Shown here: piece by piece, positions 3,611 through 10,145 of the stretch
How positions within the stretch are numbered: the stretch's first letter is position 1
Layout: each line of letters begins with the position of its first letter
DNA from: an uncultured Bacteroidota bacterium
GTDB lineage: Bacteria > Bacteroidota > Bacteroidia > Flavobacteriales > Flavobacteriaceae
Reading direction: 5' to 3'
Length of the DNA stretch: 64,000 nt
Assembly (NCBI GenBank): GCA_902559035.1
Contig: CACEGG010000003.1
Location: 1 to 64,000 of the forward strand
Program-made: the position numbers and the translations under genes
The notes under the pieces: model-generated
The model's input: only the letters and a program-made list of their open reading frames with translations
Told to the model about the DNA's origin: nothing
Databases searched by the model: none

Positions 3611-4693
3611 CTAACTATTTATCACCTTTTCTTGGTTATTAATTGATTCTTGGTGAATTGCTTTAAACATTCTTAAAACAAACTCTTCGCTTAATCCTTT
3701 TTTTTCACCCTCTAGAATCATATTTCCTAAAATTTCATTCCACCTTTTAGTTTGAAGAACAGCTACATTTTTTTTCTTTTTTAACTCACCAATTGAAACA
3801 GCTACCTTCATTCTTTTTCCTAGAGTTTCAAGTAATCCATGATCTATTACATCAATCTGTGTTCGGAGTGTATTAAGTTGATTTTTATAATCTGCCTCTT
3901 CACTTGTTAAAGTTCTAATTTTTAAGTCATTCATCATTTTAACCAGTACTGAGGGAGTAATTTGTTGAGCAGCATCACTCCAAGCATTGTCGGGGTCAAT
4001 ATGTGTTTCAATTATAAGTCCATCAAAATTCAAGTCCAAAGCAGTTTGAGATATATCCTGAAGAATATCACGCCTTCCAGCAATATGTGATGGATCACAA
4101 ATTAATGGTATATCTGGAAATCTATTTTGCAGCTCTATTGGTAATTGCCACTCAGGGTTGTTTCTGTATTTAGACTTTTCATAGGTTGAAAATCCACGAT
4201 GAATAACACCCAATTTTTTAATATTTGCTGAATATAATCTTTCAATTCCACCAAGCCACAATGCTAAGTCAGGATTTACAGGATTTTTAACTAGTACAAT
4301 TTTATCAGTTCCTTTAAGTGCATCTGCAATTTCTTGAACTATAAATGGACTTACTGTAGATCGAGCTCCAATCCACAAAACATCTATATCATATTCAAGA
4401 GCTAGTTTAACATGACTCGCATTAGCAACCTCAGTTGCAGTTAATAAACCTGTTTCTTTTTTTACTTTATCTAACCATTTAAGACCTATAGCTCCAACGC
4501 CTTCAAACATTCCAGGACGAGTTCTAGGCTTCCATATACCTGCCCTATATATAGACACATCTGTATCTTTTAAATCATGAGCAATTTTCAATACCTGATC
4601 TTCCGTTTCAGCACTACAAGGACCAGCTATTACAAGTGGATGATTTAATTTAAAATCATCAAGCCAAGTTCTCATTTCTTTTCTATTTTCCAT
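3611..4693 (-). CDS. Bifunctional 3-deoxy-7-phosphoheptulonate synthase / chorismate mutase type II
   Basis: N-terminal DAHP synthase (VIAGPCSAET, GIWKPRTRPGMFEG, CDPSHIAGRRD) and C-terminal AroQ chorismate mutase helices. Confidence 0.95.
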   Translation of the reverse strand: MENRKEMRTWLDDFKLNHPLVIAGPCSAETEDQVLKIAHDLKDTDVSIYRAGIWKPRTRPGMFEGVGAIGLKWLDKVKKETGLLTATEVANASHVKLALEYDIDVLWIGARSTVSPFIVQEIADALKGTDKIVLVKNPVNPDLALWLGGIERLYSANIKKLGVIHRGFSTYEKSKYRNNPEWQLPIELQNRFPDIPLICDPSHIAGRRDILQDISQTALDLNFDGLIIETHIDPDNAWSDAAQQITPSVLVKMMNDLKIRTLTSEEADYKNQLNTLRTQIDVIDHGLLETLGKRMKVAVSIGELKKKKNVAVLQTKRWNEILGNMILEGEKKGLSEEFVLRMFKAIHQESINNQEKVINS

Positions 4694-5543
4694 TTTTTGT
4701 TTTATTATTTAATATTTCTTTAATTCTATTTGTATTATTTAATATTTCCGATAATTTGTCATCATTTTCATTTAAAATCAACTCTTTCAGAAGATTTAAA
4801 TTTGAAACATACTCTTCAATAGCGGCTGCTAAATTAGTTTTATTTTGTAAAAAAATAGGTGTCCATGTTTTTGGGTTACTTTTTGCAAGCCTTACTGTTG
4901 ATTCAAAACCACTTCCAGCCAAGTCAAAAATATTGTCTTCATTTTTTTCTTTTTCAATAACAGTTTTCCCAAGCATAAATGAGCTTACATGAGAAAGATG
5001 AGAAACATACGCTACGTGAACATCATGAGATTTTGAATCCATGTAAATAGTTTTCATTTTTAAACCTTCAAATATTTCAAGTGCAAATTTTCCTAATTTA
5101 TTATCTGTTTTCTCAAACTCGCATATAATATTTGTTTTTCCGATATAAAGACCTTTTTGAGCAGCACTAGGTCCAGAAAATTCTGTACCAGCCATTGGGT
5201 GAGCAGCAAGATAATTTGATCTTTTACTATGATTTTCTAAAAGACTACAAATAGCTTCTTTAGTTGATCCTAAATCAATCACTAAAGTTTTTTGACCAAC
5301 TCTATCTAAAATTTTTGGAAGAATTTCAAGAAGATAATTAACTGGAACCCCAACTAAAACTAGATCCATTTCGCTTATTTTAGAATATTCAAGCTGATGA
5401 TCAATTAACCCGAGCTCTAAAGCTTTGTTTAGGTTCTCCTTTGACATATCTAAACCATAAATCACAGATTTTGGGTAGGGAATTTTTATATCTAATGCGA
5501 AAGACCCTCCCATAAGTCCTAAACCAACTATTCCTATTTTCAT
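4683..5543 (-). CDS. tyrA: Prephenate dehydrogenase
   Basis: MKIGIVGLGLMGGSFA Rossmann fold; AAHPMAGTEFSGP motif. Confidence 0.95.
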   Translation of the reverse strand: MKIGIVGLGLMGGSFALDIKIPYPKSVIYGLDMSKENLNKALELGLIDHQLEYSKISEMDLVLVGVPVNYLLEILPKILDRVGQKTLVIDLGSTKEAICSLLENHSKRSNYLAAHPMAGTEFSGPSAAQKGLYIGKTNIICEFEKTDNKLGKFALEIFEGLKMKTIYMDSKSHDVHVAYVSHLSHVSSFMLGKTVIEKEKNEDNIFDLAGSGFESTVRLAKSNPKTWTPIFLQNKTNLAAAIEEYVSNLNLLKELILNENDDKLSEILNNTNRIKEILNNKTKNGK

Positions 5544-6691
5544 AATTCTATTCTTTTAAGAGCCTCATCAATTTTGACTTCGTCAATACACAACGAAAAT
5601 CTAATATATCCCTCTCCGTTGGATCCAAAAATTGTTCCTGGGGCAATAAAAATTTTCTTTTCTTTAAGAAGAGTATCTATGTATTGATCTGAACTTTTTA
5701 CATGATTGGGAAGTTTTGCCCAAACAAATAACCCTTTAGAATTTTTATCATATGAGCAATTGAGTTTATCAGCAATATTCCAAATTAATTTTCTTCTTTT
5801 GAGGTATACTTTATTTAAATCATCAAACCAACTTTTATCTAGATTTAAGGCAGCTATGGCGCCTTTTTGGATTCCATAAAACATACCTGAATCCATGTTG
5901 CTTTTTACTTTTAAAACCTTAGTAATATTGTCAGAAGAACCTACCAACATTCCTACTCTCCAACCTGACATATTGAAAGATTTACTAAGAGAATTAAGTT
6001 CTAAAACAAAATCCTTGTAACCCTTCACTTTAAGTAAACTTAAATATTCATTATTTAAAATAAAGCTATAAGGATTATCGTTTATTAATAAAATATTATT
6101 GGTTTTTGCAAACTCTAAAAGTTTTTCAAATTGATCAAAATTTGCAGAAGCTCCAGTCGGCATGTGAGGATAATTAATCCACATTAACTTTACTTTTGAA
6201 AGGTCTTTATTTTCTAATTCTGATAGATTTGGAAACCAGCCATTTTCTTCTGATAAATTATAAAATACAGGATTAGCCTCAACGAGTTTTGTTACTGATA
6301 AATAGGTAGGATAACCTGGATTTGGAATCAAAACTTCATCGCCAGGGTTTAGAAAAGCTAAAGATATATGCATAATACCTTCCTTTGATCCCATTAGAGG
6401 TAATACTTCATTTGAAGGATTTAATTCTACCCCAAAAAACTTATTATAAAACTTAGCTATGGCATCTCTAAGTTCAGGTAATCCCTGATAACTCTGATAT
6501 TTATGAGCAAATGAATCTGATAAACTATTCTTAATTTCATCAACTACTTTAACTGATGGAAATAAATCAGGACTTCCTATTGCCATATTTATAACAGACT
6601 CACCAGATTGAATCATATTAGAAACTTCTCTTAATTTTTTAGAGAAATAATATTCTTCTACACTATTTAATCTTTCTGACTGTTTTATCAT
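5540..6691 (-). CDS. Pyridoxal phosphate-dependent aminotransferase class I/II
   Basis: Class I fold (NPGYPTY, NSLSKSFNMSGWRVG); position between pheA and tyrA suggests an aromatic substrate. Confidence 0.92.
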   Translation of the reverse strand: MIKQSERLNSVEEYYFSKKLREVSNMIQSGESVINMAIGSPDLFPSVKVVDEIKNSLSDSFAHKYQSYQGLPELRDAIAKFYNKFFGVELNPSNEVLPLMGSKEGIMHISLAFLNPGDEVLIPNPGYPTYLSVTKLVEANPVFYNLSEENGWFPNLSELENKDLSKVKLMWINYPHMPTGASANFDQFEKLLEFAKTNNILLINDNPYSFILNNEYLSLLKVKGYKDFVLELNSLSKSFNMSGWRVGMLVGSSDNITKVLKVKSNMDSGMFYGIQKGAIAALNLDKSWFDDLNKVYLKRRKLIWNIADKLNCSYDKNSKGLFVWAKLPNHVKSSDQYIDTLLKEKKIFIAPGTIFGSNGEGYIRFSLCIDEVKIDEALKRIEL

Positions 6692-7506
6692 TTCATTTGG
6701 TTTTTATATAATCCTAAAACCTTTAACGATTCTGCTTCATTTTTAATCAAATCGATTGCATCATTAAAGTTTTCAATTGAACTAAATGTTGTATCAACAA
6801 AAAAGGAATATTTCCAAGGTATTTCAACAATTGGTAGAGATTGGATTTTAGTAAGGTTTAAATTATAATCTTTTAAAATACTTAAAACAGATGCTAAACT
6901 ACCAGTTTCATGACTTAGTGAGAATTTAAGTGAAGCCTTATCAATTAAGTTTTCATTTTTAGAAAGTTCTTTAGAGACAATAACAAATCTTGTTTCATTG
7001 TTTTTTATAGTTTGAATATTACTAGAAATTATTTCTAAACCAAAAATTTCAGCTGCTTCAATACTTGCAATAGCTGCAGTATTTTTAATCTTTTTCTCAG
7101 AAATTTGTTTTGCAACATCTGCAGTGTCTTTTTCCTCAACCAAAGTTATATGAGGATATTTCATTAAAAAATTTTTACACTGTAAAAGTGCCATAGGATG
7201 AGAGGAAACAAATTTCAAATCTCCCATATTTATTCCTGGAAAAACCATTAATTGGTGATTTATATTTATGTAATATTCTCCAACAATATTTAAATTAAGA
7301 GTATCAATTAAAGCGTAGTTTGGAATTATAGATCCTGCTATTGAGTTTTCTATTGCCATAACCCCAAAATCTGAGTCATTATTAATGACTGAAATAGCTA
7401 AGTCATCAAATGACAAAAATTCCTGAACAGAAACCGAATCTCCAAAATAGCATTTAGCTACTTTATCGTGGTATGATCCTCTTATTCCCTGTATTCCTAT
7501 TTTCAT
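6688..7506 (-). CDS. pheA: Prephenate dehydratase with ACT domain
   Basis: IQGIRGSYHDKVAKCYFG, GVMAIENSIAGSI, TRFVIVSKE, C-terminal ACT domain (ETGSLASVLSILKDYNLNLTKIQSLP). Confidence 0.95.
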   Translation of the reverse strand: MKIGIQGIRGSYHDKVAKCYFGDSVSVQEFLSFDDLAISVINNDSDFGVMAIENSIAGSIIPNYALIDTLNLNIVGEYYININHQLMVFPGINMGDLKFVSSHPMALLQCKNFLMKYPHITLVEEKDTADVAKQISEKKIKNTAAIASIEAAEIFGLEIISSNIQTIKNNETRFVIVSKELSKNENLIDKASLKFSLSHETGSLASVLSILKDYNLNLTKIQSLPIVEIPWKYSFFVDTTFSSIENFNDAIDLIKNEAESLKVLGLYKNQMK

Positions 7507-7513
7507 ATTATCT

Positions 7514-7543
7514 TAAAAAAAAAGTCCTGATTTTATCAGGACT
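7514..7543 (-). terminator. Intrinsic terminator (attenuator) in the pheA leader
   Basis: Minus strand AGTCCTGAT-AAA-ATCAGGACT (perfect 9-bp stem) followed by about 8 U; ends a few nt before the pheA ATG at 7506. Confidence 0.9.
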
Positions 7544-7587
7544 CACTAAAATATATTAATTGTGTAATTATATATAAAAAGGTCCTG
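7537..7587 (-). promoter_or_regulatory. Predicted antiterminator hairpin of the pheA leader
   Basis: CAGGAC (7582-7587, inside leader-peptide codons 20-22) complements GTCCTG (7537-7542, 5' arm of the terminator); inner stem ATATATAATT-ACAC-AATTAATATAT lies between them. Confidence 0.75.
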
Positions 7588-7645
7588 TTTCCTCTTCAAA
7601 ATAGAAGAAGAAATAAAAACTTTGAAAAAAATAATTACGATTCAT
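7568..7645 (-). CDS. Phe/Tyr-rich leader peptide MNRNYFFQSFYFFFYFEEETGPFYI
   Basis: ATG at 7645..7643, TAA at 7570..7568; 8 Phe and 4 Tyr in 25 codons; sits between a promoter and a terminator upstream of pheA. Confidence 0.85.
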   Translation of the reverse strand: MNRNYFFQSFYFFFYFEEETGPFYI

Positions 7646-7661
7646 TTAATTTTTTAAAATT

Positions 7662-7691
7662 CAAATGTAGTATTAGTTATGGTAAAAACAA
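7662..7691 (-). promoter_or_regulatory. Bacteroidetes-type promoter for the pheA operon
   Basis: TTG-N19-TACATTTG, matching the TTG/TAnnTTTG consensus; predicted start lies about 10 nt before the leader ATG. Confidence 0.8.
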
Positions 7692-10071: not shown

Positions 10072-10130
10072 GAAGCTTCTGCTTTAGCACTTTTTTAAAG
10101 AGGTTGCAATCAGTCAAATCGATCCTCTAA
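10072..10130 (-). ncRNA. SAM-II riboswitch
   Basis: Minus strand AGAGGAUCGAUUUGACUGAUUGCAACCUCUUUAAAAAAGUGCUAAAGCAGAAG matches the SAM-II pseudoknot (P1 AGAGG/CCUCU, GAUUUgACnnnUUGCAA, UAAAnnnnGCUAAA), upstream of metY-metX. Confidence 0.9.
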
Positions 10131-10145
10131 TAATAAATTAGACTT

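Follow-up and report, generated by a model that had tools for sequence, protein, structure and literature searches.

We conclude with high confidence, from comparison of related sequences, that the pheA leader in the 64,000-nt stretch of DNA analyzed here (the window) acts as a ribosome-mediated transcription attenuator that would sense charged tRNA-Phe and tRNA-Tyr and control the genes for pheA, an aminotransferase, tyrA and a DAHP synthase/chorismate mutase. The core of this reading was already put forward in the initial annotation: a peptide rich in Phe and Tyr (F/Y) codons, an RNA arm near the end of its ORF, a terminator, and the position of the ribosome as the switch. Conservation, co-variation and spacing among relatives support it. 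The elements of the leader and the genes that follow it are:

7662–7691, minus strand: predicted Bacteroidota-type promoter, read from the sequence as TTG (7691–7689), N19 and TACATTTG (7669–7662)
7568–7645, minus strand: ORF of the leader peptide MNRNYFFQSFYFFFYFEEETGPFYI, 25 aa, with ATG at 7645–7643 and stop TAA at 7570–7568
7588–7613, minus strand: hairpin A in the MFE fold, UUUCUUCUUC (7613–7604, Phe codons), a UAUUUU loop and GAAGAGGAAA (7597–7588)
7582–7587, minus strand: arm 1, the antiterminator 5′ arm CAGGAC, in leader codons 20–22 and pairing with 7542–7537
7537–7542, minus strand: arm 2, GUCCUG in the sequence, common to antiterminator and terminator
7522–7544, minus strand: intrinsic terminator hairpin GAGTCCTGAT-AAA-ATCAGGACTT, invariant or compensated among relatives
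7515–7523, minus strand: T-tract of the terminator, 9 T in the sequence
6688–7506, minus strand: pheA, prephenate dehydratase (Pfam PF00800, E 1e-51)
5540–6691, minus strand: class I/II aminotransferase (Pfam PF00155)
4683–5543, minus strand: tyrA, prephenate dehydrogenase (NCBIfam NF006307, above cut-off, E 4e-109)
3611–4693, minus strand: DAHP synthase fused to chorismate mutase (Pfam PF00793 and PF01817)

By these Pfam and NCBIfam identities the operon makes Phe and Tyr and includes the entry step of the pathway, and the leader codons match the products assigned from the domains, exactly Phe and Tyr, with 8 Phe and 4 Tyr among the 25 codons of the sequence. The TTG-N19-TACATTTG promoter, the 25-codon ORF, and the hairpin with its T-tract before pheA were all found as the initial annotation had described them; the distance from promoter to ATG, given there as about 10 nt, measures 16 nt after TTTG. 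Bacteroidota promoters have the consensus TTTG/TAnnTTTG; the promoter keeps its position in the alignment of same-genus leaders, and TAnnTT[TA]G lies upstream in 48 of 70 leaders compared with 8 (maximum 17) in shuffles. The terminator hairpin, with its T9 run, lies 15 nt before pheA, whose ATG is at 7506–7504, and is the only terminator-like site between 7000 and 8200, where 0.3 would be expected. The leader has a G+C content of 20%, and an ATG-started ORF with at least 12 F and Y codons arose in 55 of 5000 dinucleotide shuffles; since 1.1% of such AT-rich shuffles yield a similar ORF, the ORF alone is only moderately surprising and proves little. The leader RNA folds far more stably than its shuffles (z −5.8). 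Judged from sequence, the attenuator is real and beyond chance, and the weight of this judgment lies on conservation and co-variation among relatives.

In the same genus, all 18 complete leaders contain an F/Y ORF that starts with ATG and has the core F-Y-F-x-F, together with a terminator and arm 1. ‘Cryomorphaceae bacterium BACL29’ is among the close relatives, and the window therefore probably comes from a marine flavobacterium. Across the Flavobacteriaceae we examined 76 pheA leaders, 75 of them complete and 72 analyzed in full. The element is present in every complete leader (75/75), and each of the 72 has an ATG-started F/Y-rich ORF and a terminator, the peptides averaging 5.1 F and 4.1 Y in 23.4 aa; one further leader ends at a contig edge, with the terminator and the tail of the F/Y run visible. 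In L021, L062 and L102 inserted DNA moves the element away from pheA by several hundred additional nt. A covariance model trained on 37 leaders matches 58 of 61 Flavobacteriaceae genera, mostly with one strong match per genome, and a location upstream of pheA was shown for 28 of the best 30 matches. The alignment of related flavobacterial leaders that had been suggested as a check recovers both the F/Y ORF and the covarying segments. Within the peptide only the F/Y run is kept, and starts, tails and stop positions vary. Substitutions within the leader, counted by codon position (638/1152/1026), do not show the usual third-position excess, because F/Y exchanges and RNA pairing dominate them.

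Two further features of these leaders may be recorded. The insert that separates attenuator and pheA in L021, L062 and L102 is repeat-like and several hundred nt long. A Trp codon occurs in 29 of the 72 leaders, typically right before the F/Y run (NWFYFFF, FWNGFYF, WNRFYFF; e.g., L026, L038, L051), and is missing from leaders of the window's genus; in the lineages that carry it the leader peptide may additionally sense Trp.

The triple formed by arm 1 in the leader and the 5′ and 3′ arms of the terminator (arms 2 and 3) co-varies between genera. The terminator arm reads GTCCTGA, GTCTCGA, GTCCCG, GTTCCGA, GCCTCGA, ATCCTGA or ATCCCGA by genus, and the matching leader segments shift with it (CAGGAC, CGAGAC/CGAGGC, CGGGAC, GGAACT, GAGGC, AGGAT and CGGGAT), with a register of arm 1 that differs by 1 nt between arm classes in the leader alignment. 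The complementarity of leader CAGGAC to terminator GTCCTG, on which the initial annotation had built its case, is thus confirmed, and arm 1 tracks arm 2 between genera. When arm 2 was swapped among species, the best complementarity was 17.1 for a leader's own arm versus 13.4 (sd 0.35) for swapped arms and was equaled in 0 of 1000 permutations, phylogeny being only partly corrected for in the permutation tests. Because arm 1 had originally been picked by complementarity, the test was repeated with anchors that do not depend on it, the terminator loop and the F/Y codon that closes the run. In this anchored position scan the own-minus-swapped complementarity was 4.5 at +12 nt and about 0 away from there, the signal being confined to 12–14 nt downstream of the final F/Y codon; the silent neighboring positions serve as a phylogenetic control, since their relatedness is identical to that of the signal position. 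Pair counting within the window's genus found cells paired no better than in shuffles, and co-variation is weak there because the arms are nearly invariant. Arms 1 and 3 compete for arm 2, and the antiterminator is accordingly mutually exclusive with the terminator.

The spacing of these elements is the strongest sign that ribosome position would act as the signal. Across the 72 leaders the modal distance to the start of arm 1 is 14 nt (sd 1.9), counted from the first base of the nearest preceding F/Y codon, and the leader stop codon drifts across 35 nt. The start of arm 1 falls within −20 to +8 nt of the stop in 70/72 leaders, a range of about one ribosome footprint. A ribosome covers about 12 nt downstream, a figure quoted for the stop codon (PMC4833913), and with the 14-nt spacing a ribosome at the last F/Y codon would therefore just leave arm 1 free. 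With these distances a stalled ribosome would free arm 1 and a ribosome at the stop would mask it. The initial annotation had placed the arm inside the coding sequence, which holds for most leaders; in 11 of 72 the stop codon comes before arm 1 rather than, as is usual, after it, and what is conserved is coverage of the arm by a ribosome at the stop.

From the parts, conservation, co-variation and spacing observed in these leaders we infer stalling, termination, pausing and a response to amino acids, in the following order. RNA polymerase would initiate about 10 nt before the leader ATG, and hairpin A may pause the polymerase right after arm 1 has been made, giving time for ribosome loading. 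When Phe and Tyr are ample, the ribosome would reach the stop and place its footprint over arm 1, and with arm 1 covered arm 2 would pair with arm 3 and transcription would terminate before pheA. When Phe or Tyr is scarce, the ribosome would wait in the F/Y run. Stalled on the final F/Y codon, it would reach to just before arm 1, leaving this arm free to pair with arm 2 while arm 3 is still unmade; the terminator would thereby be pre-empted and transcription would go on into the operon. Folding calculations are consistent with these steps. Before arm 3 is made, the probability of arm 1:arm 2 pairing averages 0.91 when the ribosome sits on the final F/Y codon and is 0.99 with the ribosome two F/Y codons earlier; with the ribosome at the stop it is 0.03, a value that follows by construction of the mask. 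In the equilibrium calculation on the full leader the terminator is strongly favored over the antiterminator, with a probability of 0.97 even when the ribosome is stalled. Since equilibrium always favors the terminator once the transcript is complete, the choice between the two structures must be a kinetic one, as it is for other attenuators.

Hairpin A, in which the Phe codons of the 5′ arm pair with a purine tract (3′ arm) directly adjoining arm 1, is found in nearly all relatives. Its local fold has a mean z of −2.7 over the 72 leaders, and it also appears, without being imposed, in the RNAalifold consensus, where a C-G pair is replaced by U-A. When 3′ halves are swapped between species the hairpin loses 1.3 kcal/mol of stability, with 0 of 300 permutations as stable, and in some leaders the hairpin is rebuilt with other bases (UCUAC/GUAGA in L017, UUACUUC/GGAAGUAA in L052). 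Pause hairpins are located 11–12 nt before the paused RNA end (PMC12288461), and at that distance arm 1 would still be within the polymerase while it pauses at hairpin A. By analogy, hairpin A could be an RNA polymerase pause hairpin that lets the ribosome catch up. Downstream of hairpin A no clear pause-site consensus was found, and the composition table shows a T-rich stretch only. The earlier claim that no 1:2 protector hairpin is needed holds in that no specific protector of arm 1 is apparent, and it overlooked this conserved first hairpin.

A protector complementary to arm 1 was considered and finds little support: upstream sequence is no more complementary to arm 1 than shuffles are (9.2 versus 9.7 shuffled), and arm-1 pairing with the leader is near the swapped-arm control (0.53 versus 0.48). 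Hairpin A adjoins arm 1 without overlap, and protection of arm 1 is near control level. With neither a ribosome nor arm 3 present, unconstrained folding gives arm 1:arm 2 a median probability of 0.91 (mean 0.65). With no specific protector apparent, and with arm 1:arm 2 forming without a ribosome, an untranslated leader should tend toward read-through. In these folding models the chance is better than even that read-through is the default without translation, opposite to E. coli trp superattenuation. We tentatively extend this to a possible Bacteroidia-wide design, held at somewhat less than even confidence, in which a pause hairpin made from the control codons adjoins arm 1, not overlapping it, and lack of translation leads to read-through. 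Conservation of hairpin A and its position next to arm 1 would also fit a ribosome-mediated attenuator that, like E. coli trp, terminates by default when untranslated, with hairpin A as a protector reaching weakly onto arm 1; in the free leader about half of arm 1 does pair weakly with upstream sequence. The shuffle-level complementarity, the near-control pairing and the high arm 1:arm 2 probability in unconstrained folds argue against this termination default, which we consider rather unlikely. For a ribosome-mediated attenuator, the footprint-tuned spacing yields clear predictions, including the sign of the response to loss of translation.

Explanations without attenuation fare worse. A plain terminator needs no third segment, whereas arm 1 tracks arm 2 at a fixed F/Y spacing; the peptide is conserved in its F/Y run only, while starts, tails and stops drift; and the element stays in front of pheA. 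These observations make it highly improbable that the leader is a stand-alone small gene or sRNA, producing a functional F/Y micropeptide or trans-acting RNA with an ordinary terminator that merely precedes pheA, even though its own promoter, ORF and terminator form a complete transcription unit. Still less probable is a ligand- or protein-sensing leader (a Phe/Tyr riboswitch or a target of an RNA-binding regulator) with an incidental ORF: riboswitches too use terminator/antiterminator pairs, but no aptamer-like conserved region is present, the only conserved structures are hairpin A, arm 1:arm 2 and the terminator, all variable in sequence, an Rfam search gave no family at threshold (RF01859 Phe_leader, 16.8 bits versus a gathering threshold of 55), and the F/Y-coding ORF in every leader would be left unexplained.

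Like the classical trp/phe/his-type leaders trpL and pheL of E. coli, the ribosome-mediated attenuator proposed here has a leader peptide enriched for codons of the amino acids that the operon makes, an antiterminator and an intrinsic terminator that exclude each other, and a control-codon hairpin before the antiterminator arm. Unlike in trpL and pheL, the first hairpin adjoins the antiterminator arm and does not overlap it, and hairpin A is for that reason not an established rival of the antiterminator; in most leaders the arm is within the ORF, and a single peptide reads two amino acids. The pheA leader is thus a new and well-supported example of classic attenuation and not a new type of switch, although its arrangement may prove a variant. 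Vitreschak et al. reportedly predicted, in 2004, some attenuators in Bacteroidetes/Chlorobi. Trp attenuators of Corynebacterium and Streptomyces likewise form terminator and antiterminator from three mutually complementary segments, with a triple conserved in sequence (gGCC-rGCy-GGCC), whereas the triple described here changes in concert between genera (PMC1262725). RNA-seq of Flavobacterium psychrophilum yielded, in the main text of Guerin et al. 2021, strong hints that amino-acid operons are attenuated through leader peptides encoded upstream, with pheA and hisG 5′ elements that are conserved in other genera and without Rfam hits (PMC9723704). That pheA element shares the family (Flavobacteriaceae), the gene and a structured transcribed region with ours but belongs to another genus, and the main text of the report does not give the peptide, arms, spacing and class-wide distribution presented here (PMC9723704). 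A structured pheA 5′ element had thus already been flagged in the phylum, where the initial annotation knew of no experimental study of this architecture. Leader-like short ORFs are noted in general in a B. thetaiotaomicron map (PMC7366714). In the literature open to search we found no earlier dissection of such a leader in Bacteroidia, and Rfam has no model of it.

The attenuator extends beyond the family. In a small sample of Bacteroidia outside Flavobacteriaceae it is present in 15 of 19 genomes; pheA genes sampled from other families of the same order carry it in 5 of 7 cases, and those from other orders of Bacteroidia in 10 of 12. Outside Bacteroidia, again in a small sample, it was found in 2 of 21 genomes, both with unusually class-like pheA proteins. 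For Bacteroidia as a whole, a class that lacks a strong Shine-Dalgarno system, it is thus very probable that aromatic amino-acid synthesis is under classical attenuation. Two Bacteroidia genomes, L128 and L130, have two apparent tandem F/Y leader ORFs, each with a terminator-like hairpin, about 60–370 nt upstream of pheA.

Elsewhere in the window, a SAM-II riboswitch (10074–10133, minus strand; 74.9 bits versus a gathering score of 44) sits upstream of O-acetylhomoserine sulfhydrylase and MetX-like genes that end shortly before the pheA promoter. A terminator search between metX and the pheA leader found none, and Met read-through transcripts would therefore also reach the attenuator. A combined scan for terminator, third segment and short ORF found no further attenuator of the same shape in the 64,000-nt window; in the same genome the region upstream of ilvD has no such leader, and hisG was not found in the assembly, which is 88.6% complete. 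A candidate Trp attenuator precedes trpE in the same genome (L112, minus strand, offset about 770–900), with the leader MNLKLNTNWWQSLNFH. GTCGAT follows its stop directly and could base-pair with the ATCGAC segment of the terminator GGCTTGT-TAATCG-ACAAGCC-TTTTTT, a three-segment logic similar to that of the pheA attenuator.
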